A DNA stretch of 64,000 nucleotides, taken from an uncultured SAR86 cluster bacterium. GTDB lineage: Bacteria; Pseudomonadota; Gammaproteobacteria; Magnimaribacterales; Magnimaribacteraceae. The notes under the pieces were generated by a model that saw nothing but the letters and a program-made list of their open reading frames with translations, had not been told where the DNA came from and made no database searches. This document shows, one piece after another, positions 2,082 through 36,371 of this stretch. How positions within the stretch are numbered: position 1 is the stretch's first letter; each line of letters begins with the position of its first letter. The DNA is taken from assembly GCA_902542325.1 (NCBI GenBank), contig CACBUE010000006.1:1-64000 (forward strand), read 5' to 3'. A program made the translations under genes and the position numbers.

Positions 2082-2088
2082 AATTTTA

Positions 2089-7423: not shown

Positions 7424-8034
7424 TGAAAAAATTTATTACTCTCACTTTCCTGATTTTCTATTTTTCACAATTCTTATCGAGTTATGTAGAAAATGAGGAT
7501 AGCGCGCCCGAATTCAAATTATCTGATAGTTATGGAAACGAAATATCTCTAAGTTCATTCATAGGTAAAAAAGTTGTACTAGAGTGGACAAATCATGGAT
7601 GTCCTTATGTTGCAAAGCATTACGAGACAGGAAATATGCAGTCTACTCAAGAATTTGCTAAAGAAGAAGAAATCATATGGTTGAGTGTTATTTCCTCAGC
7701 TCCAGGTACCCAAGGATATGTTTCATCGGATGAAGCCAATGCGCTAACAATTTCAAGAAAGGCTTCTCCATCACATGTTCTATTCGATCCAACAGGCGAA
7801 GTGGGTCGAATTTATGATGCCAAGACTACTCCTCATATGTATATAATCAACGAGGAAGGCCTAATGAAATACCAAGGAGCTATTGATGATGCTGGTGGTA
7901 GAGGGTTTATGAGTAGAGATCTTCTGAAAGCAAAGAACTATGTAAAAGAGAGTTTGAAAGAGATGGGCACCGGCGAAGAAATATCTTCACCAGTTACAAA
8001 GCCTTATGGGTGTTCTGTAAAATATGCCTCTTGA
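7423..8034 (+). CDS. Redoxin/AhpC-TSA-like thioredoxin-fold protein
   Basis: EWTNHGCPYVAKHY...FDPTGEVGRIYDAKTTPHMYII. Confidence 0.85.
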   Translation: MKKFITLTFLIFYFSQFLSSYVENEDSAPEFKLSDSYGNEISLSSFIGKKVVLEWTNHGCPYVAKHYETGNMQSTQEFAKEEEIIWLSVISSAPGTQGYVSSDEANALTISRKASPSHVLFDPTGEVGRIYDAKTTPHMYIINEEGLMKYQGAIDDAGGRGFMSRDLLKAKNYVKESLKEMGTGEEISSPVTKPYGCSVKYAS

Positions 8035-8039
8035 GAAAT

Positions 8040-8366
8040 TTATTCCGGGGCTTTAAATACTGATCCTAGCTTTTGTCCTAATCCCATATCTCCTGAAAAC
8101 TTAACTTTCCCTTGCATAAAAGCTCCCATTGCCGCTTGCTGATCTCCAGAAAATACTTTTTCCATAGTCTCTTGGCTATCAAAAGTTAAAGTTAAACCTG
8201 GATCTTCATGCTCAGACTCTACAACAGATAAAGTTCCATCATTTATATCCACATAGAAATTTGTTAGATCTTCAATATTAATTTGAATTGTTGCTTCTAT
8301 TCCTTTAGCACCTTCAGCATCAAAGGCAGTTTCAAGTCCAGTTTTTAATTCTTCAAAAGTTGCCAT
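8040..8366 (-). CDS. SCP2 sterol-binding domain protein
   Basis: Small protein with SCP2-like pattern (LTFDSQETMEKVFSGDQQAAMGAFMQGKVKFSGDMG). Confidence 0.85.
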   Translation of the reverse strand: MATFEELKTGLETAFDAEGAKGIEATIQINIEDLTNFYVDINDGTLSVVESEHEDPGLTLTFDSQETMEKVFSGDQQAAMGAFMQGKVKFSGDMGLGQKLGSVFKAPE

Positions 8367-8459
8367 ATTTACTCCATTTCATTTTTTTGTGAACTCATCT
8401 TCTCAAATTAAGTGAACTTAAACCACCCTATGTGGAAATAAATTGATAAAATTTTTGTC

Positions 8460-9344
8460 ATGGACAGAAAAGATATAGATCAACAATCTAAAAAAGATTT
8501 CTCAAGTAAGATTAACGAGCAAGTAGGAAGAACTTCTAGCAGAGAGTTAACTCTCACGAAGTATATGACTGAAGAACAGAAAAAAAGTTGGAATGATTCA
8601 GGCTATATTTTAATACCTAATTTTGTTGATGAGAACTTCTGTAATGAGATGAATGATGAAGTGATAAGCATTATAAAATCTATTGTTCCTGAGGATAGTG
8701 CTTTTAGTCACGCCTATGCGGGAGATGGTCACATAGCGATAAGAGAAATGAAACCCAGTAAAAATGCCACTAGCATTGAGGATGAAATATCCAAGCTCTT
8801 TAGAATTCACTCAAAAGGTGTTTTTAACTCATTTATCAAAGATGAGACCTTGTGCAATCTATTGGAAGATATAATTGGACCTGATATAGATTGTTTTTTA
8901 AGCCAATTTATATTCAAGAATCCAGGCGCATGGGGACAACCCTGGCATCAAGATTCTTCTTATTTTCCTTTCGACAGAGAACCGCAAGTTGCGGCTTGGT
9001 TAGCAACAAGCGAAGCGACACTAGATAATGGATGTCTAGTAGTTCTTCCTGGTTCACATCATGAACATCTTCATGAACACCTTCCGGATGATAGAAAAGA
9101 ATCAAATTATGGATATACCGAAATAAAGGATCATGATTTCAGTGATGAAATACCCATGACTTTAAATAAAGGGGATTTATTATTGTTTCACAGCTTCCTA
9201 ATGCATAAATCCTATGACAATAAGTCTGATTCTAGAAGAACAGCAATGGTTTATCATTTTGCTGAAACCGGCACTGATTATGGAGCTATTGATAGTCCAA
9301 CCAATGAATGGATCTCTATTAGAGGTCGTGGACTAAATGCTTAG
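8460..9344 (+). CDS. Phytanoyl-CoA dioxygenase family protein
   Basis: WHQDSSYFP...NGCLVVLPGSHHEHLHEH...HKSYDNKSDSRRTA. Confidence 0.9.
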   Translation: MDRKDIDQQSKKDFSSKINEQVGRTSSRELTLTKYMTEEQKKSWNDSGYILIPNFVDENFCNEMNDEVISIIKSIVPEDSAFSHAYAGDGHIAIREMKPSKNATSIEDEISKLFRIHSKGVFNSFIKDETLCNLLEDIIGPDIDCFLSQFIFKNPGAWGQPWHQDSSYFPFDREPQVAAWLATSEATLDNGCLVVLPGSHHEHLHEHLPDDRKESNYGYTEIKDHDFSDEIPMTLNKGDLLLFHSFLMHKSYDNKSDSRRTAMVYHFAETGTDYGAIDSPTNEWISIRGRGLNA

Positions 9345-18436: not shown

Positions 18437-18607
18437 ATGAAATCTTTCTTTTTAATTTTAATGCTATTTTCTTTATCAAGTTGTGCTGTGGCAAGTTTAA
18501 CAAAAACAGCTGTAACAACGGCCGTCAAAGTGGTTGAAGTTCCTTTTAAAGTAGTTGGAAGCGTATTGTCAGAAGAAGAGGAAGAAGCAGCAGAAGATGA
18601 ACAGTAA
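18437..18607 (+). CDS. Small lipoprotein (56 aa; NF038104-like)
   Basis: My own reading: MKSFFLILMLFSLSSCAVASLTKTAVTTAVKVVEVPFKVVGSVLSEEEEEAAEDEQ*; clear lipobox. Confidence 0.7.
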   Translation: MKSFFLILMLFSLSSCAVASLTKTAVTTAVKVVEVPFKVVGSVLSEEEEEAAEDEQ

Positions 18608-18613
18608 ACATCT

Positions 18614-18661
18614 TGGTAGATACGAGTGGACTCGAACCACCGACCCCCACCATGTCAAGGT
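18614..18661 (-). repeat. 3' tRNA-Val(GAC) fragment: left attachment site of composite island
   Basis: tggtagatacgagtggactcgaaccaccgacccccaccatgtcaaggt matches the 3' half of the intact tRNA at 23394 with a few substitutions. Confidence 0.85.
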
Positions 18662-18720
18662 TACAGTCTTAAATCAATAATCCTTATCGTAACTGGATTT
18701 CAGAGCATTGGTATTTTTAC

Positions 18721-18743
18721 TGTGTCCCTTTTTGTGTCCCTTT
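18721..18743. repeat. Tandem GTGTCCC repeat, left end of element 1 (putative integrase arm sites)
   Basis: TGTGTCCCTTTTTGTGTCCCTTT; second copy at 23269-23289. Confidence 0.75.
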
Positions 18744-18812
18744 AGTGCAGCAATTCTACAATTTCAAGCAATTTTGCGTCCCTAAATTAGCTTGGGTTAG
18801 TCCACAAAAATT

Positions 18813-21800
18813 TTAATATTCAGTTATGAAACCTTTCTTTGATTTGGGCTTTAGAGGTACTCCTATTTTCTCAAACTCTTTAATTATGTTCTCCTCAAGC
18901 TTTCCTTTCCTGAACTTATCTCTGCATTTAGTTAGAAACCCACCAAGATTTTCTCCAAGGTAAATCGTACTCTGAGCAATAGTGGTATCCCCTGTATCTT
19001 CCACATAAGCTTTTAGCATTATCATTTGTTTTTTTAAAGCATCTGCAAAAGGATCGAAAGTAAAGTAAGGAATTTTTAACAGGAGCATTATTTCTTTTTC
19101 AGTTAATTTACCTGCTTTGAATCTTGTTCTTTGTTTCGTAACCCACGCCTTATCTTTGGAATATTTCTTTTTATCGGGAATCTTGCCCTCCCCAGCTATG
19201 ATAGCTTTTTTGGCGCTTTCATAATTTTCTAACCATTTCTTTTCATAGTCGGATCTAAAATCAAAACCCTCTTTTTCAAGCAGAATTAATTGATATTCTT
19301 TGAGAGGTTTTCTTCTAATCGTTGGTGTTTTTAACGCTTTGTATCTAATCTTTTGCTCTGCAGCAAAAATATCTACTCTCTGTCCGTTATGAACAGTTCC
19401 TTTTGGTGCTAGATCTTTTTTAAATTTTTTCTTATAAGACTTCCAGGCTTCAAAACGAATATCCCAATTGAAGTCATCGTGAGTCTTATTAAAAATATCT
19501 GGATGTATTGTTAGGCACTCCGCAAGGATGTCTTCCTCCAAAGTATTTTTATCATGAGAGTTTTTGACAGATCTAAATTTCTCTCCTAAGCCATATCCAT
19601 CAATTACAACATCGGCTTCTGGTACAGGATTAGTATTTTGATCAACCCAAAGTTTAAGATAGATCAAGAATTCTTGGTTTCTTTCTCTAATATTTGGAGT
19701 GCCTAAAAAATTATTCCATCCATTCCATTCTTTATATCGTTGTTCAGGAAAAATAGGCATATCTTTCGGAGCATCCTCAGATCTCATAAATTTTCTATAT
19801 TCAGTACTGGTCTTTATTCCCAATTCCTGGACAAGTTGTTTTGCTTGTTCCCAGGGTCTTCTACCCAGTCTAGCCACACGATCCCACGCTTTGATATTTA
19901 GCTTTTCAGTGAAATCCTCTAAATTAAAGTCTACTGGTAAATTCTCACCAGTAATTTCAAAGAATTTCTTAGGCGGCTTCTTTCCTTCTCTAATGAGTCT
20001 GAAATATTCAACCAGCCTTCCATCATGTTCCGACATTGCTCTTAATACCATAAGAATTTGCTGATAAGCCTCATCTATTTGATCAGGGGAATTTTTATTG
20101 ATGATGGTAGGAACAATTATGTAACTTAGCCCTTTATTTTTATCACCCTTTCTTAATGCTCTTCCTATTGCTTGCGTTATATCTACTTTAGACTGCTTTG
20201 GATCAACAAACATAACAGCATCGATTGAAGGTACGTTTACGCCTTCTGAAAGGCATTGAGCGTTAGTCACTAGGCTTGGAGGATTACTCGAAAAGTCCTC
20301 AAGAATGTCAAGTCTTTCAGTTCCTGACTGATTGCCATCAACATAATAAGTATTGAGATCTCCGTCTATTTCTTTAGCTCCCTGTCTGAAGGCATTAGCT
20401 CGATTTCTTCTTCCATGAAAAGAAACTGTATTTCTTATATTTCTTTCTTTTCTGAGTTTCTTCAATGAAATAACTGAAGCTAGAAGCTTCAGTTCAACTT
20501 CTTCAGGTAGCCTCTTCTTATCTACAACAAATGGATTTTCTTTTAAAAGTTCCCTATATTTTTCCGTACTTTCAATTTGGGTGACGATGCTGTAGTCATT
20601 CAAGAGCTTTTTGCCACCTATACCCTCTATTGCATCTTTTACAGTTATCTCATTGATAACTTGACCATAGATTTCTTCATCATCCATCGAAGCAATACGA
20701 TTATTAGTACCTACTAGTCTTTTTGGCGTGGCGGTCATGAATAATCTTTTCTTAATCTTAATGTTTTCATCAAAAAGTAAATGAGATGACAGTTTCTCTT
20801 TTGATGTAGCAGTGTTGTGCGCCTCATCGAAAAATGCGAAATCTATATGCCTATTCAAGGCAGAGATATTTTTAGCAAAGACTTTACCGGATTGATAAGT
20901 TGCGAATATTACCTTATTTGTTCTTTTAGATTTTAAAAAGACTTCTAGATCCTCCTTTTTATTTGAGACTCTTATCCCCAGCTCTTGCATCCACAGCTCA
21001 GGATCACATTCGCCTATCTTCTCATTTGACTTATCTGAGCAAACTACAAAGGGTGAGATAGGCACACCGTCAGCAAGGCTTTCTTTAGTCCATTCGATTA
21101 GAGTTTGGTTTATTAGTTGCAGACTAGGAACAACATATAAACAGAGCTTAGGCTTGAGTTCCCTGAAAGCAAAATAAGAAGTTAGAGTTTTTCCTGTTCC
21201 GCAGGCATGAATAACTTGACCTCTACTCTCATTTTTAAAATGTTTCAGGATACTCTCTCTTGCGATCTTTTGGTGTTCAAATGGCTCTTTTGATTTATAT
21301 TCAGGAATTAAATTATCTATAACTTTTCTTATATTACTGAAGTCCTCTCTTGAAAGTTGTTTAAAGTCACCTCCAAGAAGAGTCCTAAATTGAAGGTTTG
21401 GGTGTCTGTCTCTTAAATCCTTACTTCGAGTGATGTCTTTTGCATTGGAACACATCAAGATAGTATCTACATAAGGTTTGGCGTTTTTTCCATTAGCTAT
21501 CTCTAGAGGAGATTCGATGTGACCTTTTGTAAGATTTTTAGATGTACTATCTAGATATTTGCACTGAATGATATCTATCTTCCCATCATACCTTTCAGCT
21601 ATGGCATCTGCTCCCTCTTCTTTGTTATAAGTTAAGCCAAGGATTTTCTTAAATTTATTTTCCTTAAGATATTGCGATGAGTGTAAAACTCTTTTATAGG
21701 TAGTTCGATATCTTGGATCTATCTGAAGGTAAAATACACAAAGCCACTCAAAAACTGTACCTCTTTTTTTTGGACTAAATTTAGATATTCGTGCTTCAAG

Positions 21801-21845
21801 ATCTTTCCAAGAATTACATTTGTAAATTAATTGCTGTGGTGTCAT
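18813..21845 (-). CDS. PD-(D/E)XK-like nuclease / SF2 (DEAH) helicase fusion with C-terminal helicase-associated or integrase-repeat-like region
   Basis: GADAIAERYDGKIDIIQCKY (nuclease-like), ACGTGKT (Walker A), FFDEAHNT, MTATPK, QAIGRALRKG (motif VI); YKEWNGWNNFLGT-type repeat. Confidence 0.85.
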   Translation of the reverse strand: MTPQQLIYKCNSWKDLEARISKFSPKKRGTVFEWLCVFYLQIDPRYRTTYKRVLHSSQYLKENKFKKILGLTYNKEEGADAIAERYDGKIDIIQCKYLDSTSKNLTKGHIESPLEIANGKNAKPYVDTILMCSNAKDITRSKDLRDRHPNLQFRTLLGGDFKQLSREDFSNIRKVIDNLIPEYKSKEPFEHQKIARESILKHFKNESRGQVIHACGTGKTLTSYFAFRELKPKLCLYVVPSLQLINQTLIEWTKESLADGVPISPFVVCSDKSNEKIGECDPELWMQELGIRVSNKKEDLEVFLKSKRTNKVIFATYQSGKVFAKNISALNRHIDFAFFDEAHNTATSKEKLSSHLLFDENIKIKKRLFMTATPKRLVGTNNRIASMDDEEIYGQVINEITVKDAIEGIGGKKLLNDYSIVTQIESTEKYRELLKENPFVVDKKRLPEEVELKLLASVISLKKLRKERNIRNTVSFHGRRNRANAFRQGAKEIDGDLNTYYVDGNQSGTERLDILEDFSSNPPSLVTNAQCLSEGVNVPSIDAVMFVDPKQSKVDITQAIGRALRKGDKNKGLSYIIVPTIINKNSPDQIDEAYQQILMVLRAMSEHDGRLVEYFRLIREGKKPPKKFFEITGENLPVDFNLEDFTEKLNIKAWDRVARLGRRPWEQAKQLVQELGIKTSTEYRKFMRSEDAPKDMPIFPEQRYKEWNGWNNFLGTPNIRERNQEFLIYLKLWVDQNTNPVPEADVVIDGYGLGEKFRSVKNSHDKNTLEEDILAECLTIHPDIFNKTHDDFNWDIRFEAWKSYKKKFKKDLAPKGTVHNGQRVDIFAAEQKIRYKALKTPTIRRKPLKEYQLILLEKEGFDFRSDYEKKWLENYESAKKAIIAGEGKIPDKKKYSKDKAWVTKQRTRFKAGKLTEKEIMLLLKIPYFTFDPFADALKKQMIMLKAYVEDTGDTTIAQSTIYLGENLGGFLTKCRDKFRKGKLEENIIKEFEKIGVPLKPKSKKGFITEY

Positions 21846-21891
21846 ATTAATTGATTAAAAAACTCATCTTTTCTGCAATTTTCACGAAAAC

Positions 21892-23139
21892 TTAAGACTT
21901 TTCTTTTTTAATTTCCTTTTTTAAAAAGTCAATAAACTCTTTTCTCTTAAGACGGAATAATTCTTTAAACCTTTTATATCTGAGATATCTTTTAAAGATC
22001 AACCAATTTTGTACTTTAATAATTACATCTGGATCAGAGTCTAGGAAAGCTTTTGTATTATGAAAAAATTCATCTTGATTTTTATGCAGATAGCTCATGA
22101 GCAAGGGTTTAATATAAACAGCCCATTCATGATCTTCTTCTTTAATTGACTCAATGAGAGTTTCATGAGACTCTTTAAAATCTTTATCTCGCTTAATAAT
22201 TTTTTTATCAAATATAGACTCCATTAGGATTATAAAATTTACTTTTTCATCAATTGAAAGATTGTGCATGTTGTCTAAGGAATCTATTTTCCTCATGAAT
22301 AAATCTTTTAAAGTCGAAAGAATCAGCACATCATTGTTAACAATTGCATACACAATATAGTCATGGAGATTTGTTTTTAGGTCTTGATGATTTAGATCCA
22401 TCAAGAGACTTTCTTTTATATAAATTAAAGCCATGCAGATGTGACGCAAATATGCTGGAGTAACAGACAGATCTATGGGATTGTCAGATGGATTTTCCCG
22501 TTTCTTACCTGAATATTCGTCTTCTTCATCACCGCGTATAGACGATTTACTGTAAGTTAATTTATGAGCAAGTTCTATAGTCTTGTCATCAATCTTACTT
22601 TTATTGAGTTCATCATAATAGAATTTATCTGGTCTTCGACCCCGGTGCACTAATAAATTTCTTCTAGCCCTGGCTTCATAATAACGTTTAAGTTCTCTTT
22701 GCAAAGTTTTCTCAGTAAATCTAACCTCATCTTTTAGTAATTCTCTTAATATAACTAATCCATTTTTCTCTTTTTCTATCAATGAATAGCTCTTAATCAT
22801 TTGAGTAGGGCGATTGTAGAACTTCGTCCATTCCTCTTGCCCTTTATTAAGACTTTTTACCTTCTCATTACATAGGCTTGTAAACATATTTATATATTTA
22901 TCTTTTATGGCTTTGCTATTTTGAACGCCAAATATATTTAAATGTCCAATAAATCTATCGAATATAGCCAATAAATAAATGAAATTTGCATTCATTTGAT
23001 GAACTTCTTTATAGGTAACTCTCTTGATCATTGTTACTGCATTAAGTATCTCGACTACAACTTCATCAAATTCAGCTTCTCGATCATGAAAGCTGATACT
23101 TTTCGCATTTTTTTTTGACCCGTTTTTTTTCTTAGTCAC
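21892..23139 (-). CDS. Hypothetical protein with RNxxxH (HEPN-like) motif
   Basis: YYEARARRNLLVHRGRRPD contains R-N-L-L-V-H; otherwise unrecognised. Confidence 0.6.
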   Translation of the reverse strand: MTKKKNGSKKNAKSISFHDREAEFDEVVVEILNAVTMIKRVTYKEVHQMNANFIYLLAIFDRFIGHLNIFGVQNSKAIKDKYINMFTSLCNEKVKSLNKGQEEWTKFYNRPTQMIKSYSLIEKEKNGLVILRELLKDEVRFTEKTLQRELKRYYEARARRNLLVHRGRRPDKFYYDELNKSKIDDKTIELAHKLTYSKSSIRGDEEDEYSGKKRENPSDNPIDLSVTPAYLRHICMALIYIKESLLMDLNHQDLKTNLHDYIVYAIVNNDVLILSTLKDLFMRKIDSLDNMHNLSIDEKVNFIILMESIFDKKIIKRDKDFKESHETLIESIKEEDHEWAVYIKPLLMSYLHKNQDEFFHNTKAFLDSDPDVIIKVQNWLIFKRYLRYKRFKELFRLKRKEFIDFLKKEIKKEKS

Positions 23140-23268
23140 TTTACATCTCTAAAATTATCTCTAATAGATTTTGAACCAATATATCATCTGGAATCATCAC
23201 CTCCAATAAATGAAAGGTCTAAAAGCTAAATAAACAGGAAGATGTTTCTAGTTATCTTTCTATTCTAG

Positions 23269-23289
23269 TGTGTCCCTTTGTGTGTCCCC
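23269..23289. repeat. Tandem GTGTCCC repeat, right end of element 1
   Basis: TGTGTCCCTTTGTGTGTCCCC. Confidence 0.75.
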
Positions 23290-23393
23290 TTTTTGCATCA
23301 TAAAACGGTCTTAATCTGCTTAAACCTTCTTAATCGTTAAAACGGGATTTGGCTGAAAAGCCTTTAAATCAGTTGAAAACTAGCTGGGAGGGG

Positions 23394-23471
23394 TGGTAGA
23401 CACGAGTGGACTTGAACCACCGACCCCCACCATGTCAAGGTGGTGCTCTAAACCGACTGAGCTACGTGTCT
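23394..23471 (-). tRNA. tRNA-Val(GAC), CCA encoded
   Basis: RC: AGACACGTAGCTCAGTCGGTTTAGAGCACCACCTTGACATGGTGGGGGTCGGTGGTTCAAGTCCACTCGTGTCTACCA; cloverleaf folds; anticodon loop TTGACAT. Confidence 0.95.
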
Positions 23472-23499
23472 ACTGCGTTTCAGGGCTATTGATATTTTC

Positions 23500-23521
23500 T
23501 GTACGGCAAATGTACGGCAAA
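23500..23521. repeat. Tandem TGTACGGC repeat, left end of element 2 (putative arm sites)
   Basis: TGTACGGCAAATGTACGGCAAA; matches 36106-36125. Confidence 0.8.
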
Positions 23522-23690
23522 ACACCTCTAAAGTTGACTGCTTTTCTGCCCTGACCTACAACTTTAATTCGAATAATAACATAACTCTATAGGACCCCGG
23601 GCATGAACCTGCCACCCCACATAGCCTAGATATATCACATGGTCGAACATTTTTAGCCAAAAAGGTTTGTAAAGTAGTAGAGTAAGAATC

Positions 23691-23834
23691 ATGTCAAAAC
23701 TACCTAACCCAAGAGACTTAGTTTTAGATAAAGAAGTTAAAGTTTCTAATGGGATTAAAGGACATCAACACAGGGAAAAGAATAGATTAAAGAGAAAGTA
23801 TTTCCAGATACATAACTTAGAGGAGTTTGATTGA
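23691..23834 (+). CDS. Small basic hypothetical protein (47 aa)
   Basis: My own reading: MSKLPNPRDLVLDKEVKVSNGIKGHQHREKNRLKRKYFQIHNLEEFD*; overlaps next gene start. Confidence 0.5.
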   Translation: MSKLPNPRDLVLDKEVKVSNGIKGHQHREKNRLKRKYFQIHNLEEFD

Positions 23835-24283
23835 TGGAGATGATAAAAAAAAGATTCTGGTTTTTATATTATTGGTTAATGACTTCTTATCTAGTTCTGG
23901 CATTGTTTCTAATATTATTTTTTAAAATTAATCATACTGATAGACAACTTACAGATGAGACTTTGTTGTATTGTGGTCCGTTGGATTTTGGAGGTCTTTT
24001 CGATGAAGCTTGTAAGCAAGGTAGGAATTATTCCTCTGTCATGATTGATATTAATGAGTTCTACTTTTTTGATTTCATATCTCTCGAAGCAAAACATTGT
24101 CAAGATTTTGATAGTTTAACCAGGCAATTAGGTGAGTTTGCACCTGACTGCCTTGAAAGAAATATTGATTTAAAACGTTGGACTAGTTTAGATAATTTCT
24201 ATCCTTTTCTTATTGTTTTGATAATGACAATTATCAGATGGATATTCAGAGGAAAACATATATGGAATATGGAAAAGCTTTAA
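23834..24283 (+). CDS. Membrane protein, unknown
   Basis: ORF with two TM segments and a Cys-containing loop; ATG at 23834 preferred over TTG at 23831. Confidence 0.6.
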   Translation: MEMIKKRFWFLYYWLMTSYLVLALFLILFFKINHTDRQLTDETLLYCGPLDFGGLFDEACKQGRNYSSVMIDINEFYFFDFISLEAKHCQDFDSLTRQLGEFAPDCLERNIDLKRWTSLDNFYPFLIVLIMTIIRWIFRGKHIWNMEKL

Positions 24284-24289
24284 ACTTAG

Positions 24290-24538
24290 ATGATTAAGTT
24301 TTACTTAGGACTACTAATCATTTTCATAGGTATCTTCAATCTGATAGTAGTTGTCTTTGCCTACAGAGATTTCAATCCACAACTATTCGTTATGTTTCTT
24401 ATTGCCTTACTCGTTTATCCATATGGCATTTATTTAACTATCAAACATAGACCTAAGTTTGAGAAAGATAGTAAGGTAGATGATGAAAAAAGCAGTATAG
24501 AAAAAATGATAGCCAATCATGGAGAGGAGATTGAATAA
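24290..24538 (+). CDS. Small membrane protein, unknown
   Basis: ORF with two TM segments and acidic tail; tightly packed in cassette. Confidence 0.6.
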   Translation: MIKFYLGLLIIFIGIFNLIVVVFAYRDFNPQLFVMFLIALLVYPYGIYLTIKHRPKFEKDSKVDDEKSSIEKMIANHGEEIE

Positions 24539-24741
24539 TGAAAGATAGATTCTTTTTTGTTTTGCATTGGGTTGCATTTTTATACCTTGTACCAATAGGT
24601 TTTATGATTCTTATGAATGCACCTGGCAGAGATGCAGATTTTTGGTTTAATGTCTGGTGGCTTTCTTATCCTTCTTTTTTGATTCTGGATTACATAATTA
24701 ACGGAAAGCTCATTTGGTTTCCTTGGTTGAGAGATAAATGA
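24538..24741 (+). CDS. Small membrane protein, unknown
   Basis: ORF with two TM segments; TAATG coupling with previous gene. Confidence 0.6.
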   Translation: MKDRFFFVLHWVAFLYLVPIGFMILMNAPGRDADFWFNVWWLSYPSFLILDYIINGKLIWFPWLRDK

Positions 24742-25079
24742 AAAACTTTTACCAAAACTGGTCGAAAGTAGTCAACGACGAATCGGTTGATGAAGAGATG
24801 CGTATTGGTACTCTAAAAGCTCAAACTGGATGGGCAATTGATGAAGCAACTGCTAAGAATCTTCTCACTCAAGCTAAACTCAACAACGCACTTACAAAAG
24901 TAGTTCCCGGTAGCTCAGAGTGTCTTGATATATTAAGGACTCTGACTGATTTATATAAAAATTGGGAAGAACTTAACAACCTCAAAGAAGAAGTTTTTTG
25001 GAATCCTCAACCTTGGGATGAAAAGTATGAAGCTATGGAACATTTGATAGCCTTAGTAAAGAAAGTTAGAAGACTTTGA
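24738..25079 (+). CDS. Hypothetical soluble protein
   Basis: ORF overlaps previous gene by 4 nt (ATGA). Confidence 0.6.
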   Translation: MKNFYQNWSKVVNDESVDEEMRIGTLKAQTGWAIDEATAKNLLTQAKLNNALTKVVPGSSECLDILRTLTDLYKNWEELNNLKEEVFWNPQPWDEKYEAMEHLIALVKKVRRL

Positions 25080-25178
25080 TGTTCGAAACTACTTTTTTAT
25101 TTCTTTCGGAATTGGATGGAATGTGGAAAAAACTGTTGTGGAACTATCTTATAAAATAGCAATAGTTATAATCATTTA

Positions 25179-25979
25179 ATGCCGTCTCCTTTTTTAAAAT
25201 GGGCTGGTGGTAAGTCTCAGCTTTTACCTGAGATAAGAAAACTTTACCCCGCAAAATACGCTAAATATTACGAACCTTTTCTAGGAGGAGGTGCGGTGTT
25301 TTTTGACTTGAAGCCCAAAAATTATCTTCTTTCTGACATTAATCCAGAGCTTATCAATGTCTATAAAATGATTGCTACGAAGCATAAACAGGTTATTGAA
25401 AAACTTCTCTTAATGAAAAATACTGAAACTTATTTTTATGAGAAAAGAGCTCAAAGATTTGAAGATTTAGAAAAAATTGAAGCTGCTGCCAGAACAATTT
25501 TTCTGAATAGAACTTGTTTTAATGGTTTGTATAGAGTGAATAAAAGTGGTCAATTTAATGTTCCCTATGGTAGATATAAAAATCCAGACTTCGTCCAAGA
25601 ACTGAAACTAAAAGATTCGAGTAAGCTTCTTAAAGCTAACAGTATTGTGCTTATGGCTTTTGAAGAACTACGAAAATTAGAGATTACAAATAAGGACTTT
25701 ATTTTTTTTGACCCACCTTACGTGCCGTTAGATGGTTATGCAGATTTCAAACGCTATACAAAAGAACAGTTTCATATGGACAGCCAAGAGAACCTGGCAG
25801 ACCTATTTAAATCATTAGCTTCAAAGGGTGTTAAGTTGATACTGACAAATTCCAATACGGAAGCTGTTTTAAGGCTCTATAAAGGGTTTGATTTCAAAGT
25901 AATACAAACAAAGCGTAATATAAACTCAAAAGGCAACAAGAGAAAAGGAGAAGACTTAATCATTCATGCAAACCTTTGA
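25179..25979 (+). CDS. DNA adenine methyltransferase (D12/Dam class)
   Basis: PFLKWAGGKSQLLPEI, YYEPFLGGGAVFF, FFDPPYVPL. Confidence 0.92.
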   Translation: MPSPFLKWAGGKSQLLPEIRKLYPAKYAKYYEPFLGGGAVFFDLKPKNYLLSDINPELINVYKMIATKHKQVIEKLLLMKNTETYFYEKRAQRFEDLEKIEAAARTIFLNRTCFNGLYRVNKSGQFNVPYGRYKNPDFVQELKLKDSSKLLKANSIVLMAFEELRKLEITNKDFIFFDPPYVPLDGYADFKRYTKEQFHMDSQENLADLFKSLASKGVKLILTNSNTEAVLRLYKGFDFKVIQTKRNINSKGNKRKGEDLIIHANL

Positions 25980-27012
25980 GAAAACAGTTTTTTCGCAACT
26001 ATCTAAATTTCCTAGTACTCGTTACATGGGCTCAAAGGATAAATTATTACCTGAGCTTTTTAGAACTTTTAACAAGTTAGAGTTTTCTTCAGCGTTAGAT
26101 ATTATGTCTGGTACTAACTCAGTAGCTTATTTGCTTAAAGCAATGAATAAGAAAGTTACCACCAATGATTACATGCGTATGAACTTTGTTATAGCAAAAA
26201 GCTTAGTCTCTAATAATGGGACGAAACTACCTGATGATATTGCTACTGAATTACTAAAAAATAATAGAACCAATAAATTCATTGAAGATAATTTCTCAGG
26301 AATTTATTTTGATGACGCCGACACAAGAGAAATACAAAATATAAACAACAATATCCAACATTTATTAAAACCTTCCCAAAAGTATCTTGCAAAAGCTGCC
26401 TTAATTAGGGCATGTATAAAAAAAAGACCCAGAGGTATTTTTGCTTACACTGGTCTTAGATACAACGACGGAAGAAAGGATTTAAGGCAAACTATTGGCG
26501 AACATTTTATTCACAGTGTCGAAACCATCAATAATGCAGTTTTTTCAAATAAACTTACTAATAAAGCTCTGAATATTGACTCTATGGATGTCAATGAGCA
26601 GGTAGACCTTGTCTATATAGACCCACCCTATTTCTCACCACTATCAGATAACGAATATGTAAGGAGATATCATTTTGTAGAAGGTGTAGCCAGGGACTGG
26701 CAGGGTGTTGAATTACAAGAGCATACAAAAACTAAAAAATTTAAGAGTTATCCTTCTCCGTTTTCAAAACTTGATACGACCATACAAGCCTTTGAAGAGT
26801 TAATTAAAAAATATGCCAAATCTCATATTGTAATTTCTTACTCTTCTAATGCATTACCTAAGAAAAATGTGATTCTAAAAATACTAAAGAAATACAAATC
26901 TAATGTGCACGTTAAATCTGTTGATTATCGCTACAGCTTTTCTAATCAAGGCTTTGCAAAAGATAAAATAAAAAATAAAGTAAGTGAGTATATTTTTGTT
27001 GGAAAAGATTAA
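25966..27012 (+). CDS. Second DNA adenine methyltransferase (D12 class)
   Basis: TRYMGSKDKLLPELF, VDLVYIDPPYFSP; overlaps both neighbours. Confidence 0.9.
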   Translation: MQTFEKTVFSQLSKFPSTRYMGSKDKLLPELFRTFNKLEFSSALDIMSGTNSVAYLLKAMNKKVTTNDYMRMNFVIAKSLVSNNGTKLPDDIATELLKNNRTNKFIEDNFSGIYFDDADTREIQNINNNIQHLLKPSQKYLAKAALIRACIKKRPRGIFAYTGLRYNDGRKDLRQTIGEHFIHSVETINNAVFSNKLTNKALNIDSMDVNEQVDLVYIDPPYFSPLSDNEYVRRYHFVEGVARDWQGVELQEHTKTKKFKSYPSPFSKLDTTIQAFEELIKKYAKSHIVISYSSNALPKKNVILKILKKYKSNVHVKSVDYRYSFSNQGFAKDKIKNKVSEYIFVGKD

Positions 27013-28667
27013 TGATTTGGCATCTTAACAATACAACTATTCGAAATCCTGGAAGAATGACTGAAGCCTTAAAGGTTTATGATGAGCATGGTGGCATTGA
27101 GGGATTATTTAGAAAAGGACATATAGAAGCTCAAAGGGAACTCTATAATTTGATTTTAGATGCAGGAATTATTGACAGTGAAGTCAGAGATAATGAATGG
27201 AATGGAAGAAAATGGAGATTAGGTTTATATAGGGCGGGGTTAATTGCATACAAAAACGTACCAATAGAAAACCAAGGCAGTATTACTAAAACAGGTAGAG
27301 CACTTTTAAATGCTTCTAATGAAGCAGAGTTAGAAGATGTTTTTTTAAGAATAATTTACAACATTGAGATTAGACATGATGCATTCAAAGAAGTGCCTTT
27401 CAGACCAGTTACATTAATATTAAAGGTTATGAAGCTGTTAAGAGATTCTGGAAATATAGAATCGATTAATCAAAAAGAATTTGCAATTTCTATCCAGGAC
27501 TATAGACCAAAATTAGATGCGAAAGATTATTTTGATGAAATAGTTAAATTCAGAGAAGAAGTAAAAGCCAATGAGGGTAACCTCGTAAATTTTTACAACG
27601 AAACGTACCAAAAAGTATATGAAAGAAATAATCGAAAACCTAGCATTGATACTATCTCAAAAGAATATCCTGATGTGACTTTTAGGCTATTAAAACTATC
27701 GGGAATTTTTAGATTGGAGGGCTCTAAGCTCAAACTAAATCCACAATATTTAAATCTTTTAGATTCGTTATGTGAAGATGATATCGTTTCTCTGTCTGAA
27801 AATGATTATTATCAAAAGATATCTAATCTTCCTGAAATGCCTATTGACGATAATAGGGAAATTTTGGAATCAATTATCATAAATAATTTTGAGGCCTTAG
27901 ACTCCAAGCCTTCAGATATAAAAGACCTCGACAATGAGGAACTGAGACTTTTGAGAATAAACCAAGATGATAAAATTAGGAAAGAAAATGAAAAAAGATT
28001 TGCTTACGAACAAAGAAATAAAGTAACAGTCATTACCAAATGGTTTCATTCTTTAATTTCAAACAAAAGAAATGAAGAAGATTTTGAAGGAGAATACATT
28101 GCCTTTAGAAAAGATGAGAGACCTCAATACTTGGAGTGGATTGTTTGGAGAGCTTTTCTCTCTATCAATAATCTATCAAATAAGCCATATGAATCAAGGA
28201 AGTTTCCTCTTGATTCTGAATTGAAACCCACAAGTCATGCCCCAGGCAGAGGTCCGGATTTATTGATGGAGTTTGATGAGTTCAATCTAGTTGTAGAAGT
28301 TACTTGGACGACCAGTTCAAGACAGGTTGCAGATGAAAGTGAGCCTGTTATTAGACATGTAGCCTCTATTGCTAAAGATTCTGAAAAGCCTACCTATTGC
28401 TTATTTCTTGCTCCTGAGATAAATCTAAACACATTAAATAGTTATCAGGTTGCTGATACTTATTATTTTGATGAAAACACATCAGTAATTGCGAACATAA
28501 TCCCATTATCCTTAGAAGAATTTATAAAATTCTTCGAAGAAATACCCAAAGCTAAGCAGGAAAGTATAGATAGAATTTTTACAATACTTAAAGAAAGTAC
28601 AAAGATTAAGAAAGAACTATCTCCAATGGAGTGGAAAAAGTATATAAGCGAAAAGTTTGTTGCTTAG
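27012..28667 (+). CDS. AlwI-family type II restriction endonuclease
   Basis: N-terminal W-L-N-N-TTIRNP...; catalytic-like GPDLLMEFDEFNLVVEVTWTTSSRQ; adjacent to two MTases. Confidence 0.8.
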   Translation: MIWHLNNTTIRNPGRMTEALKVYDEHGGIEGLFRKGHIEAQRELYNLILDAGIIDSEVRDNEWNGRKWRLGLYRAGLIAYKNVPIENQGSITKTGRALLNASNEAELEDVFLRIIYNIEIRHDAFKEVPFRPVTLILKVMKLLRDSGNIESINQKEFAISIQDYRPKLDAKDYFDEIVKFREEVKANEGNLVNFYNETYQKVYERNNRKPSIDTISKEYPDVTFRLLKLSGIFRLEGSKLKLNPQYLNLLDSLCEDDIVSLSENDYYQKISNLPEMPIDDNREILESIIINNFEALDSKPSDIKDLDNEELRLLRINQDDKIRKENEKRFAYEQRNKVTVITKWFHSLISNKRNEEDFEGEYIAFRKDERPQYLEWIVWRAFLSINNLSNKPYESRKFPLDSELKPTSHAPGRGPDLLMEFDEFNLVVEVTWTTSSRQVADESEPVIRHVASIAKDSEKPTYCLFLAPEINLNTLNSYQVADTYYFDENTSVIANIIPLSLEEFIKFFEEIPKAKQESIDRIFTILKESTKIKKELSPMEWKKYISEKFVA

Positions 28668-28685
28668 AATTGATACCATTGGGAT

Positions 28686-29531
28686 GTGAAAATAATTACT
28701 TGGAATATTAACTCAAGAACAAATGAAGAAACTCTCAAAGGTCAGTCTGATTTTTTAAAATCAGGTGATTTCGATTTAATAACTCTTCAGGAAGTTACAC
28801 TTAACTCAGAGGGGTTTTTTAAAGAGTCATTCAAAGATATGCATATTTTATCTTCGTTTGATCTTGTTTCAGATAAGTCCATTCTTTTGAAAAATAGAAA
28901 GTATGGTCAGTTAATAATTTCAAAGAAACCTATTAAATTTGTTTCAGATCCATGCACCGAGATACCTTTCCCTGAAAGGGTACTTTCAGGTTTAATTGAA
29001 ACATTTGGGTTAGAGATACACACAACTCACGTGCCTCCTGGTTCCTCTAATGGTGTTATTAAGGTTGAGCATTTTGAGGGTCTTTTTAATTACCTGAATG
29101 AAAGGAAAGATAAACAAAAAATATTAACAGGAGACTTTAACTCTCCCAAGTTGGAACTAGATACTGGGGAGGTTGTGACTTGGGGTCAAAAAATTAATTC
29201 ATCTGGACTGCCTAAGATATCTGTTAACCCTAAATGGAAGAATCAATGTTCAGGAGAAAGATGGGATAAGGCAGAAAGAAGCATAATCCAGAACCATGAC
29301 CTTTTAGGTCTAAGGGATGCTTTTCGAGCAAAAAATGGTTATGAAGTTACAATTGGAAGTTGGTATACAAACAAGGGAATTGGCAGAAGATATGATCACG
29401 TGTTTTCTGATCAAAACATTGATGTAAAAAATTCATTTTATGAGCACTCACCAAGGGACCTAAGACTAAGTGATCACTCTCCGTTGGTGGTTGAATTTAA
29501 TCTTGAAAAAACAAAAAAAACCCGCAAATAA
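28686..29531 (+). CDS. Endonuclease/exonuclease/phosphatase (EEP) family protein
   Basis: ITWNINSR, LITLQEVTL, ILTGDFNSP, YDHVFSD, SDHSPLVVEF; GTG start. Confidence 0.9.
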   Translation: MKIITWNINSRTNEETLKGQSDFLKSGDFDLITLQEVTLNSEGFFKESFKDMHILSSFDLVSDKSILLKNRKYGQLIISKKPIKFVSDPCTEIPFPERVLSGLIETFGLEIHTTHVPPGSSNGVIKVEHFEGLFNYLNERKDKQKILTGDFNSPKLELDTGEVVTWGQKINSSGLPKISVNPKWKNQCSGERWDKAERSIIQNHDLLGLRDAFRAKNGYEVTIGSWYTNKGIGRRYDHVFSDQNIDVKNSFYEHSPRDLRLSDHSPLVVEFNLEKTKKTRK

Positions 29532-29624
29532 GTAAGTGTAACGAAAGAAATAGTTCTCTTATTTCAAATCCCATTACTCACATACACATGCCTAATTCCA
29601 GGTGTGTTTTTTATGGAGAAAAAT

Positions 29625-29927
29625 ATGCAAGTATTTAAATGCGAATACGAACTTCCTCAGGGGAAGATAAATCATAACGTTCATGTTGACTGGGATGACA
29701 AAGGAAACTTACATTTTACTGAGCATGATCTTGGAAATGGTGTAAAACCAATTTGGGGAACAGATGAATACGAATATATTATGATGATTCATCAGGAGGG
29801 TGTGGCAAAGTTTATTCTTTGTTGCTTTTGGAAAGGGTTTACCTTTGAAGAGAGGTTTACTGTTGCCGGTTTGAGAAAATTATGTGATGAATATGAGATT
29901 AAATATTCAACTGATAACTGGTTTTAA
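29625..29927 (+). CDS. Hypothetical protein
   Basis: Start chosen for GGAGA at RBS spacing; ORF track start 29604 is GTG. Confidence 0.55.
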   Translation: MQVFKCEYELPQGKINHNVHVDWDDKGNLHFTEHDLGNGVKPIWGTDEYEYIMMIHQEGVAKFILCCFWKGFTFEERFTVAGLRKLCDEYEIKYSTDNWF

Positions 29928-29978
29928 CAGACTATTTAGGACCAACCAGGAAAAATTTGTTATTCAACAGTAATAGAA

Positions 29979-30911
29979 CTAGCCATCGTTTAATTCGAAT
30001 TTGACTGAATACTTCATAAAAGAAATATTTTGAGTTACAGATAGTGCTCTTCTAATTCGTTGATCATCCTCTGCGGCAATTATAACGCCTGATACCGTTT
30101 GATGCTCTTCGGCCAATACATCTTGAACGTAACCCATATATCGTTGAATTTGACCTACCACTGAATCACTCGCTCTTCCTTTTTTAAGCTCGACAACAAG
30201 TATCTCATTACCATCGTTGCTTATTGCCAAAATATCTATGGGCCCGGTATCACTGGGATATTGTTGTCCGACTATCTCTCCCTCTTCAGAATAGATTTGA
30301 TATTTTTCTCCCAGCCTAGTTCTTGACCAATTTTCTATTAAAAAATCTTCCAGATGTTTCTCCAAAGCAAAGTATGTTGGATCTTCAACCGAGTCATCCG
30401 TTGAGGACAATGTAGTCAATACATTCCCTTCTATTAATGATTCAATTTCATTGGCATATCGAGTTAAGTTAGAAACTGTGCCGATGGAACCTGAAGAGTT
30501 TCTTAAACTTTCAGACATCTCGTCTCTATTTATGAATTGATTTAACCAAGCAACATTTCTTTGATGCTGAAGGTTAGCTCCATCTACATAAGAATACCCA
30601 CCAGTCACTTCTCCAATCCTATAGGTCCCTTGACCTGTAGGACCCAATATAATATCACCTGTATTCATGGCTTTAGAGATTGTATGAATTGCACCGCAAG
30701 CAAGACCTGCTGCTACTTTAGACTTCTCAGGATGATTCTCGATATAGATTGGTATAAATTTGGCGTTAAATTCTCTCCAATTCTCTGGCAGTTCATCAGT
30801 GAGATCTTGGTTTATTCCAAAATCTGCTCCAATAAAATTCCCCTCAAAACATTCATCTGCAAAGGAGTGGGCTCTTCCCAGCATGATTCTAAAATATTGT
30901 TTGGACTGCAT
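29979..30911 (-). CDS. NucS/DUF91-like PD-(D/E)XK nuclease with N-terminal EVE/PUA-like reader domain
   Basis: DTGPIDILAISNDGNEILVVELKKGRASDSVVGQIQRYMGYV; GDIILGPTGQGTYRIGEVTGGYSYV. Confidence 0.75.
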   Translation of the reverse strand: MQSKQYFRIMLGRAHSFADECFEGNFIGADFGINQDLTDELPENWREFNAKFIPIYIENHPEKSKVAAGLACGAIHTISKAMNTGDIILGPTGQGTYRIGEVTGGYSYVDGANLQHQRNVAWLNQFINRDEMSESLRNSSGSIGTVSNLTRYANEIESLIEGNVLTTLSSTDDSVEDPTYFALEKHLEDFLIENWSRTRLGEKYQIYSEEGEIVGQQYPSDTGPIDILAISNDGNEILVVELKKGRASDSVVGQIQRYMGYVQDVLAEEHQTVSGVIIAAEDDQRIRRALSVTQNISFMKYSVKFELNDG

Positions 30912-30957
30912 AATTTATCCAATACTACACTAAATTAACTAATACCCTCTTGTGAAA

Positions 30958-31827
30958 TTAGTTTAAAAATTTTGAAAGATCTACACAGGTTCCTTCCCTT
31001 GTATAAATTCGGCAGGATTCAGTTGAGAGTTCTCTTGAAGAATGAAATTCCCCAAGGAATTTGTAGACTGTTTGACCTAAAAAGTCTTTGTAATGAGCAA
31101 ACGTGTACCATTCAACATCTTCAAATTCGATGTCTATTATTGAGTGATCTTTCTTGGTCATTTCTATACGCGAGAAATCATCACTTAGAGCATTATTCCA
31201 GAGGTCATTTTCATATAACTTTGGAAACCATACTCCTTTATTGGACCCTTTAATCGACCAAACTGCACGTTGAAAGTGACCTCCGTCATATCCAAAACAC
31301 CGCAATGCATCACGGTGATATAAAAAACTGACATTATCTTTAGTGTCTATATATCCTCTTTCAATATGTACTTCCGGATTGTATTTATTGTAATAATCCC
31401 AAGGATTGAAATTATTGTTTGCGATATATTCTTGCTTTCTATCCTTTATGTACCGAATTAATAAATCTATCTCTTCATTAATTTGTGTCAGTTCTTTAAT
31501 TTTTAAATTATTGTCATAAATCTGGATTCGCTTTTCAGTAAAATGACTGGCATCGATTATTTCCTTCATTCTGTTTTCATCTGCAATGGCATGCTCATGA
31601 GAACTATGCTGAAGCTCATCGACTTCGCAATACAATTCCAACTCGGGAAAGCAAAGGTCTGCAAGATATCTTTTATGATCAGGAGTTTTAATTAGCTGCT
31701 GACAAACAAATTCAAGTTCAGGGTCATCCAAGAGATGAACTATCCTGGTGATTACATAAAGCTCCCATTTCTTGTGTTGGATTTTAGAGAAGGCTCTTAG
31801 TATGTAATCGTCTTTAGAGATACTCAT
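30958..31827 (-). CDS. AbaSI/PvuRts1I-like modification-dependent restriction endonuclease
   Basis: KKWELYVITRIVHLLDDPELEFVCQQLIKTPDHKRYLADLCFPELELYCEVDELQH resembles the AbaSI Vsr-like nuclease. Confidence 0.65.
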   Translation of the reverse strand: MSISKDDYILRAFSKIQHKKWELYVITRIVHLLDDPELEFVCQQLIKTPDHKRYLADLCFPELELYCEVDELQHSSHEHAIADENRMKEIIDASHFTEKRIQIYDNNLKIKELTQINEEIDLLIRYIKDRKQEYIANNNFNPWDYYNKYNPEVHIERGYIDTKDNVSFLYHRDALRCFGYDGGHFQRAVWSIKGSNKGVWFPKLYENDLWNNALSDDFSRIEMTKKDHSIIDIEFEDVEWYTFAHYKDFLGQTVYKFLGEFHSSRELSTESCRIYTREGTCVDLSKFLN

Positions 31828-32036
31828 GCTGATAACAATAACATTAATTCAAAAAAGTTGACTTTATAAACAAAAATATGATACGCTGAATCGCTTAACG
31901 AACTAGCTTTCTAAGCGATTTAAAAGGCTATCCCTAGCACCTCATCCAAATAAAATTTATCGTTCAATATAGCTCGTTTCTGTGCGTTCTAGAGGCATAT
32001 TTTTAGTAGTGTTCTGCCCTATGCTAGACTGGATGT

Positions 32037-32591
32037 ATGTCTGATTTAGATTTAATCCTCGACATCATATTCATGGCAATCTTCATACCAACAGCTTTAT
32101 GGTTTTGGTTTTGGTTCGTTCCTAGGTTTAATTATGAAATGTTTAGACGCATCTCTAAATTCTTTTCTTCTAGAAAGTCTATGCAGACTCAAAAAGAATT
32201 AACGGAAGATGAAAGAGCAAAAATATACTTTGAAAAAATAGAAAAGGAAAAGAAAAAAGAAAAGATATATTCGGACATCAAGGCATTTTTTCAACTTTCA
32301 ATTGTAATCAGTATTCCAATAGTTCTAATAATATATTTCTACGAAGGCAATTGGCTGAATGACCCAATTTTAGCTGTATTTTTTTTGATAGTTGTTATGC
32401 CGGCAGGTTATATGTTCATGTTTGAAGTAATGCCTAAACTTTTATCAAAGTTATATTATCCGAAAAAGGAGAATGAAGATTGGGAGGAAGAGAGAGTTAG
32501 AGAAGACAATCGAGAGGAGATGACACTCGTCTTATCAGTTCTATTTTTAATTGCCTTTTCTATAGGTGTTCCTGTTTGGCTTCTTAGTTAG
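32037..32591 (+). CDS. Membrane protein, unknown
   Basis: ORF with several TM segments split by a charged linker (EKIEKEKKKEK). Confidence 0.6.
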   Translation: MSDLDLILDIIFMAIFIPTALWFWFWFVPRFNYEMFRRISKFFSSRKSMQTQKELTEDERAKIYFEKIEKEKKKEKIYSDIKAFFQLSIVISIPIVLIIYFYEGNWLNDPILAVFFLIVVMPAGYMFMFEVMPKLLSKLYYPKKENEDWEEERVREDNREEMTLVLSVLFLIAFSIGVPVWLLS

Positions 32592-33829
32592 TCTCTCAAC
32601 TTATCCAACTCTTTCTGTCGAATAAACTCAGCATGCTCTTTGATTAACTCTGTATACGGATGATTATATTCATCACCTAGACCTACAGAGAACATTAACT
32701 CCTCAACTGCATCCTCATTATCTTCAGGAAATATAAACTCATCATAAACAGTAAGTATTGGTATATCAGAATGGATACAACCATAGTGCTGAACCTCATG
32801 AGTGATGTTAGCTTCAATCCAAGAGAAGTGTCCTCCAAATTGTTTACCCTGCCCTAGAAAACCTGATACTTGATAATTATTTTCCTTAACCATTCTCTGA
32901 ATACCCTTGATACCACCATTGTGATTGAGAGCATGATTATGGTGTTCTACTTCTTCAGGTGTAGCTTCTTTCTCGTAATAGTTATTAATTGCTTTCTTGA
33001 ATCCAGTCTGTGAAGTATTAAGCATAATAGTTAAATAGGTCTTAACCACATCACGTTCTATAGCTAAATCTTCATAAGGTTGAAATCTTTTAGCTACATC
33101 TTTTCGACTAACTCCAGTGAGCATTTCATACATTATTGAAAAAACAGAAGCTGAGTAATCAAGAGACTTAGTAGGCTTTCCATTAATTAATATCTTGTCT
33201 CGTTTTTCTTTTGGAAAGCTCATGTACGGGTCATAAGCTCTACCGTGAAACCTCAAGTCTCCGGAATTGTCATAAGCAACATAACGTCTTGTTAAGTGCA
33301 TTGGAGTTAATGACTCACCTTCACAAGTAATAGTCTGTTGATTTAGATAGTCTGAAATCTCAGACATTATCTTTTCTATTCTCAAACTGTATGCATCTTC
33401 AAGATAAGGAACATGCTTGCCTTCTTGTCTATGCCAGATATAAGACTGTTCCTGTTCTTCTACTTTAAGACCAAGAGAATCTACAAAGTCTAAAAGTTTC
33501 TCTGTCGCTTTGAACTTAGACAGATAAGCGATGTGGTCTAACTTCTCCGTGAAGTATTTATTCCCAGTTATTGATTCAACAAACCCTGCCTCTTCGAGCT
33601 TATCAATTACGTTATAAATTGTTTTATTACTAATTCCGAATGGATTTAATTTCTCAGGTAAAGCTTCCTCGTGTCTCCTTGAGTAAAGTATTTCAGACTT
33701 CCCATACTTGGATACATTAGAGAGTAAGACATTGAGTGCCCTTTTCTGTTTTGTCCTATTGATATCTAAACCAAGACTCTCAGGTTCTATATCAATCCCG
33801 GAGTCTAGATGTAGGTTTAGGAATGGCAT
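32588..33829 (-). CDS. Putative family-A-polymerase-like (palm) protein, unknown function
   Basis: INGKPTKSLDYSASVFSIMYEMLTG (motif A-like) and IPILTVYDEFIFP (motif C-like); start reassigned to ATG at 33829 (TAATG overlap). Confidence 0.5.
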   Translation of the reverse strand: MPFLNLHLDSGIDIEPESLGLDINRTKQKRALNVLLSNVSKYGKSEILYSRRHEEALPEKLNPFGISNKTIYNVIDKLEEAGFVESITGNKYFTEKLDHIAYLSKFKATEKLLDFVDSLGLKVEEQEQSYIWHRQEGKHVPYLEDAYSLRIEKIMSEISDYLNQQTITCEGESLTPMHLTRRYVAYDNSGDLRFHGRAYDPYMSFPKEKRDKILINGKPTKSLDYSASVFSIMYEMLTGVSRKDVAKRFQPYEDLAIERDVVKTYLTIMLNTSQTGFKKAINNYYEKEATPEEVEHHNHALNHNGGIKGIQRMVKENNYQVSGFLGQGKQFGGHFSWIEANITHEVQHYGCIHSDIPILTVYDEFIFPEDNEDAVEELMFSVGLGDEYNHPYTELIKEHAEFIRQKELDKLRD

Positions 33830-34497
33830 TAAGAACTTACAAAGAACGCAAAGATTATTCCTAAAGTGCAAAAACACAAGCGGGTTACAAAAGCTTCCTT
33901 GCTTTTAGGCAAACTGTCTTCATCCTTGGACTCAATAAAAAACTCTTGTATGCGGAGAAACAATCCTGCTAGTAAATATCCTCCCAAGATTCCTAAAAGC
34001 AAAATACCTATAATTTCGATACCCGAACGGTACACTATATTGTAACGATACCATCTCTCTATCGCGTCTATAAAATATGGACTTTCTACAACAAACCAAA
34101 TAATTCCAAGAACGCCAATTGCTCTTAAAGTGTAAATTAAAACAGGATAGTCATCCTGTTCAATAAATAAAATTCCATAAACTACTATCCTGAAAAATTC
34201 CGCAGTAACTAAGAGTAGAGACAAAAGTATGAGTATTCCGACTAAAGTAAATAAAGTATCAAATTGAGGAAAGTCGATAAGGTAGCCTATCAGAAGAAAA
34301 GTACCTACGCCAAATAAGAGAAAAAGGAATGCCCATAAACCGTCTTGTTTATAGTCATCAAAGGATTGATAAATCTTATCGAAAAGATAGGATGAACCTA
34401 GACCACCTGCTATAGAGATTAAAAGAAAGATTACATCCCAGAAAATAAAATCGTAAAGGTCTTTAAAAATATTCAGAATCTCATCCATCAACTCCAT
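33829..34497 (-). CDS. Membrane protein, unknown
   Basis: Multi-TM ORF translationally coupled (TAATG) to the palm-like gene. Confidence 0.6.
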   Translation of the reverse strand: MELMDEILNIFKDLYDFIFWDVIFLLISIAGGLGSSYLFDKIYQSFDDYKQDGLWAFLFLLFGVGTFLLIGYLIDFPQFDTLFTLVGILILLSLLLVTAEFFRIVVYGILFIEQDDYPVLIYTLRAIGVLGIIWFVVESPYFIDAIERWYRYNIVYRSGIEIIGILLLGILGGYLLAGLFLRIQEFFIESKDEDSLPKSKEAFVTRLCFCTLGIIFAFFVSS

Positions 34498-34499
34498 TT

Positions 34500-34760: not shown

Positions 34761-34761
34761 G

Positions 34762-36126: not shown

Positions 36127-36230
36127 AATATCTATTACTTATACCGTTTCTAATGTAAAGTGCATCAACTATATTGTTTTTAAATCAACGTTTAAAAGGT
36201 GTTTAGATGATAGTAAGAAGTGTACCCAAG

Positions 36231-36273: not shown

Positions 36274-36371
36274 ATTGCCAATTTTTTAGCATTATATAGA
36301 GAATTTTAGTTATGTGATTACAATTGTGAGGAGTAAATCTCTTATAAATATCTTAAAATGAACCCATAATC

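Follow-up and report, generated by a model that had tools for sequence, protein, structure and literature searches.

Cleavage by LlaBIII, a restriction enzyme of Type ISP, is coupled to translocation (PMC7049714, PMC4666363). Among mobile elements, tycheposons are tRNA-bounded cargo islands of Prochlorococcus and its streamlined relatives, 4-200 kb long and equipped with a tyrosine recombinase (PMC10872708), and there is also precedent for mobility that depends on a helper (PMC11389934). Here we compare with these a locus from an uncultured SAR86 cluster bacterium. The window, i.e., the whole stretch of 64,000 nucleotides analysed (positions 1 to 64,000 of contig CACBUE010000006.1, assembly GCA_902542325.1), contains a 4.7-kb element at a tRNA-Val gene, hereafter element 1 (18662-23393), whose only genes encode a protein of 1010 amino acids (aa), HEL, and a protein of 415 aa, P415. 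Judging from sequence and fold comparison, mainly with LlaBIII, we hold with moderate confidence that HEL acts as a restriction effector of Type ISP-like kind that has no methyltransferase and is the cargo of a helper-dependent element. No published description of the HEL clade was found in a limited literature search.

The gene and its domains are arranged as follows, SF2 standing for helicase superfamily 2.
18813-21845, minus strand: HEL, 1010 aa, predicted methyltransferase-less Type ISP-like nuclease-translocase (Pfam ResIII, Helicase_C and HA; LlaBIII)
21306-21845, minus strand: N-terminal Mrr/PD-(D/E)XK nuclease of HEL, aa 1-180, with D80 and Q94-x-K96 (Mrr_cat_2, invariant residues)
19926-21305, minus strand: SF2 ATPase of HEL, aa 181-640, with ACGTGKT, DEAH and QAIGRALR (Pfam, alignment)
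18816-19925, minus strand: C-terminal array of INT_rpt-like and HA repeats of HEL, aa 641-1010, fast-diverging (HA, PF03457, E 1.4e-16)

A preliminary description of this DNA had read HEL as a nuclease fused to an SF2 helicase, and this is borne out by the ResIII and Helicase_C matches, the match to LlaBIII and the invariant nuclease residues. LlaBIII is the best solved relative of HEL by sequence (E 9.4e-44), in an alignment that runs from residue 21 to aa 628 and takes in the nuclease and both motor lobes, and it is also the best Foldseek match of the HEL model (E 1.1e-36; predicted local distance difference test score, pLDDT, of the model 85.6). As in Type ISP enzymes, an N-terminal nuclease of the Mrr-family PD-(D/E)XK type is followed by an SF2 helicase-like ATPase, evident in both sequence and fold, for which translocation is predicted. 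The motifs IIQCKY, ACGTGKT and DEAH lie at aa 92-97, 214-220 and 340-343, respectively. Mrr_cat_2 scores 21.2 bits in HEL, just under the Pfam cutoff of 22, and is over the cutoff in relatives. Across 38 relatives from many phyla, G78, D80, Q94 and K96 are invariant, as are the Walker A lysine, the D, E and H of DEAH and the arginines of motif VI; because of the invariance of these four positions, the predicted PD-(D/E)XK residues exceed chance. HEL has neither the methyltransferase nor the target recognition domain that Type ISP enzymes contain, and Pfam found no methyltransferase family in it or in eight relatives. In PADLOC, the best matches of HEL are models of Type IIG/I restriction endonuclease-methyltransferases, with a best stretch of aa 19-424 against positions 13-422 of 1646.

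The three parts of HEL diverge at different rates. HEL shares 74 and 56% of its nuclease residues and 77 and 66% of its motor residues with its two SAR86 relatives, whereas the values for the C-terminal repeats drop to 41 and 38% and then to 33 and 31%, a pattern that would be expected of a changing recognition module. Some HEL relatives bear units matching the Pfam integrase repeat unit, and the stretch of HEL that follows the motor aligns with such units. A Pfam search for INT_rpt in SAR86 genomes returned zero matches, its control being equally silent, and is uninformative.

In a tree of the nuclease-motor regions computed with FastTree, HEL belongs to a 29-member clade (support 1.0) containing no protein longer than 1450 aa. 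Of the 38 proteins above that length, 35 have a methyltransferase-type NPPY motif, against 2 of the 92 shorter ones. The closest group comprises two SAR86 proteins and one Prochlorococcus protein; each of these three relatives, like HEL itself, is carried by a tRNA-bounded element, and the tRNA differs in all four cases (Val, Ala, Phe, and Pro). In the elements of the three relatives, at tRNA-Ala and tRNA-Phe in SAR86 and at tRNA-Pro in Prochlorococcus, the HEL gene stands alone, with no partner gene, as it does in a 3.2-kb element at tRNA-Val of Pelagibacter. These single-gene elements measure 3.2-3.3 kb and each lacks an integrase; two other elements with HEL relatives, of 7.2 kb and 13.6 kb and both at tRNA-Arg, have one. 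Around the 22 closest HELs, tRNA density is eight-fold higher within 1 kb (0.306/kb) than farther out (0.039/kb), and among more distant relatives 1 of 58 has a tRNA within 1 kb. Five small viral contigs with HEL were inspected for circular forms, and none has a terminal repeat. Regarding a conserved partner gene of HEL, this possibility was rejected, as upstream genes vary from locus to locus. At one Prochlorococcus locus (L061, 5866-7935), a 689-aa protein that looks AIPR-like is separated by 2 bp from a HEL relative of the more distant kind, which follows it.

The ends of element 1 are marked by the following features, including its attachment (att) repeats.
18614-18661, minus strand: displaced 3' half of the host tRNA-Val, distal att repeat of element 1 (direct repeat with 23394-23441)
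23394-23471, minus strand: tRNA-Val(GAC), attachment gene (ARAGORN, Rfam)
18722-18740, minus strand: distal arm-type pair GGGACAC-N5-GGGACAC (genome pattern search)
23270-23288, minus strand: proximal arm-type pair GGGACAC-N5-GGGACAC (genome pattern search)

The 48-bp direct repeat that flanks element 1 copies the 3' part of the tRNA-Val gene with 96% identity between its two copies, and the distal one bears the host variant TTCGAG, as in the tRNA of an empty site. This empty site is found in a sister SAR86 species (G538), where left flank, intact tRNA-Val and right flank are contiguous. Flanked by direct copies of a tRNA end, and absent from the corresponding site of a related species, element 1 has the marks of a tRNA-integrated mobile element, and the proposal that the two genes are the entire cargo of a tRNA island holds, the repeat enclosing just these. 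The tRNA-Val(GAC) gene is the sole full-length copy detected in this genome (89% complete). Two Rfam matches to HPnc0260 (18494-18652 and 23289-23432), barely over threshold and probably spurious, overlap both att copies.

Inside the repeats, two tandem arm repeats with a 12-nt period lie on each side of the tRNA-type core. Allowing up to 2 mismatches, GGGACAC-N5-GGGACAC has exactly two matches in the 1.3-Mb genome, one per end of element 1, for a chance expectation in the window of 0.06. Of the 14 elements tested, 7 have matching tandem pairs common to both ends, whereas 3000 random segment pairs yielded none; the looser pairs visible by eye in most of the remaining elements are suggestive only. 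The arm letters themselves vary from element to element. No integrase is present within element 1, and the integrase matches of this genome are located elsewhere.

The main reason, though an indirect one, for reading HEL as a defence protein is the cargo of sister elements. In three further genomes (G542, G541, and G530), elements at the same tRNA-Val have ends homologous to those of element 1, with different arm letters. Among their genes are those for cytosine methyltransferases and for SinI-, TdeIII- and HpaII-like restriction enzymes, and an integrase profile detected no integrase in these elements. At loci L183, L185, and L190, elements at this tRNA-Val, in which no integrase was found, share open reading frames of 203, about 175, 119, 1108, and 331 aa, and in L183 the 1108-aa frame matches RNase_H_2 and an AAA_12 helicase and the 331-aa frame WYL.

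A mechanism for HEL can be hypothesized on the model of LlaBIII. The C-terminal repeats would read a DNA feature, the SF2 motor would then translocate double-stranded DNA, and the Mrr nuclease would cut when motors meet or stall. Since no methyltransferase is encoded, sparing of the host must come from the readout itself, which might recognise either a long target absent from the 1.3-Mb genome or a DNA state specific to phages. Because element 1 has att repeats and arm sites and no integrase, it would be moved by an integrase supplied in trans by a helper. A role in defence is presumed for HEL, and the anti-phage function suggested by the preliminary description is plausible.

The second gene of element 1 is of a different kind.
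21892-23139, minus strand: P415, 415-aa orphan with a GTG start, RNLLVH at 22645-22662, possible HEPN (open reading frame call)

Both reading frames lie where they had first been placed, with P415 upstream of HEL on the same strand and a gap of 46 bp between them. The preliminary description had taken P415 for a HEPN-motif protein, and the motif part of this claim stands: RNLLVH occupies aa 160-165 and conforms to the catalytic R-x4-6-H pattern of HEPN proteins. Its weight is reduced by the finding that RNxxxH, present in 1 of the 68 open reading frames of the window, arises in 4.5% of shuffled P415 sequences (R[NHD]xxxH in 11.6%), and family and fold support is below significance. No family was found for P415 in Pfam or NCBIfam. 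The PADLOC model CARF_HEPN gives a weak match (E 0.009, aa 125-183) that spans the motif, and all-helical content is predicted; the single-sequence AlphaFold model (pLDDT 37.5) is unusable. Matches to ACE2 in the PDB (E 0.04-0.8) and to a PHROG family (0.003) do not extend over the motif and were disregarded. It is possible that P415 is a HEPN RNase. Protein searches revealed no relative of P415 in 567 other genomes, GTDB contigs, viral contigs, plasmids or phages, the genome sets comprising 369 genomes of the class and 203 of the order, partly overlapping and including its own, and phmmer detected none among the open reading frames of 144 loci where HEL relatives lie. P415 is an orphan accessory gene, dispensable for the HEL family at large.

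These results bear on the idea, put forward in the preliminary description, that the two genes form a single defence system, in which HEL would sense or process invading DNA and P415, as a HEPN RNase, would shut the cell down. The shared strand, the narrow gap, the absence of any other gene from the element, the motif in a predicted helical protein and the PADLOC match that covers it would all suit such a system. Against it, P415 was found nowhere else in the collections searched, nor beside relatives of HEL, no partner accompanies the three closest HELs, and the P415 model is too poor to reveal a HEPN fold around a motif that arises in 4.5% of shuffled sequences. Co-occurrence across genomes, as expected of a conserved two-gene system, is not seen in the sets searched, an outcome that the preliminary description had itself named in advance as a refutation of its proposal, and we regard a two-component system as unlikely. 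Its statement that the pair could not be matched to a named system is correct insofar as no single PADLOC defence system fits HEL and P415 together, but HEL by itself partly matches Type ISP.

It can also be asked whether HEL is machinery for mobility or replication, binding the arm sites through its repeats and driving excision, integration or transfer. Several integrase-less elements contain no gene other than HEL, some of its relatives have repeats that match the Pfam integrase repeat unit, and some adjoin an integrase. However, the same end architecture recurs where the cargo is of quite another kind, and the ends therefore do not require HEL; moreover, its restriction-type catalytic residues are invariant and Pfam detects no recombinase domain in HEL, which leaves this explanation improbable. 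Still more doubtful is the view that the single-gene elements are decayed, immobile remnants, in which HEL was kept by chance or domesticated. While no integrase or helper was found and the host 3' tRNA half bears one extra mutation, the att repeats of HEL elements (48-54 bp) are still 96-100% identical, HEL has kept an intact frame in several insertions that are independent of one another and lie at different tRNAs, and the catalytic residues are conserved. The least probable reading that we consider applies to the one-gene elements of ocean picoplankton at large: HEL would read the arm sequences of its own element through integrase-type repeats, and would serve both mobility and the exclusion of rival elements or phages at the same tRNA.

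The reading of HEL as a Type ISP-like effector in a helper-dependent element has several points to answer. The fold match to LlaBIII is partial, with a template modelling (TM) score of 0.53 on the query; no other exact match to the GGGACAC arm, such as a helper might carry, was found among the 203 SAR86 genomes; and most of the genomes searched are incomplete. In addition, a surface protein and a DoxX/Nramp-like pair are the cargo of the tandem neighbours of HEL in Prochlorococcus contig L014, so the single-gene element is a format for general cargo and not exclusively for defence. These neighbours stand in a tandem array at tRNA-Pro (868-9123) made up of three elements with one or two genes each, whose arm letters differ from one another.

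The insertion is composite and reaches 36278: element 1 makes up just its left part, and the remainder is element 2.
23429-36278, unstranded: element 2, 12.8 kb (5'-half tRNA repeat 23429-23476 / 36231-36278)
23500-23519 and 36106-36125: element 2 arm pairs TGTACGGCA
34762-36126, minus strand: element 2 tyrosine integrase with Arm-DNA-bind_3 (Pfam)
25179-28667, plus strand: element 2 cargo, two D12-class adenine methyltransferases and an AlwI-like restriction enzyme (Pfam)

Comparison of tRNA variants with the displaced halves and with the sister species indicates that the middle tRNA-Val is apparently a mosaic of element-supplied halves, the 3' one from element 1 and the 5' one from element 2. 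By the same comparison, the host's own halves lie at 18.6 kb (3') and 36.2 kb (5'), with 17.6 kb between them. The integrase of element 2 is unlikely to be the helper of element 1, as its arms read TGTACGGCA and not GGGACAC. Besides its AlwI-like restriction-modification system, element 2 carries a PvuRts1I/SRA-type enzyme and a YhcG/NucS-like nuclease.

If the favoured reading of HEL and element 1 is true, streamlined ocean bacteria would trade defence genes singly, as near-minimal DNA cassettes reduced to att sites and one effector, with integration left to a different element. HEL would then be a restriction-type enzyme whose reader changes fast and which has no methyltransferase, and this would raise the questions of what it recognises and why the host is spared.

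With regard to known systems, HEL shares with LlaBIII and LlaGI an N-terminal Mrr nuclease fused to an SF2 translocase of double-stranded DNA. Unlike these Type ISP enzymes, it has HA/INT_rpt-like repeats in place of a methyltransferase and target recognition domain, and therefore has no built-in self-protection. The Type IV enzyme SauUSI is likewise an ATP-dependent restriction endonuclease with an SF2 motor, but its PADLOC and fold matches to HEL are weaker and its sequence match is confined to the motor (7clg, E 4.6e-06, aa 499-575); HEL differs from it in having Mrr-type residues, and no modified-base reader was detected in HEL. As for P415, it resembles HEPN RNases in its RNxxxH motif within a predicted helical protein, with profile and fold matches below significance. 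Like tycheposons, element 1 and the single-gene HEL elements are tRNA-bounded cargo carriers, but they span 3.2-4.7 kb and have no recombinase. Element 1 resembles hitchers, cis-mobilizable elements and phage satellites in that att sites are kept and mobility is expected from another element (PMC11389934), whereas the cargo of element 1 and of the single-gene HEL elements is only one or two genes and no helper was found for them. The arms, 12-nt direct repeats that stand in pairs to either side of the core, follow the layout of the annotated attP of P4, from which the arm letters of element 1 differ, as they do among elements. What is new here is a probable Type ISP-like effector that lacks its methyltransferase and is housed in recombinase-less cargo elements, both kinds being already known.

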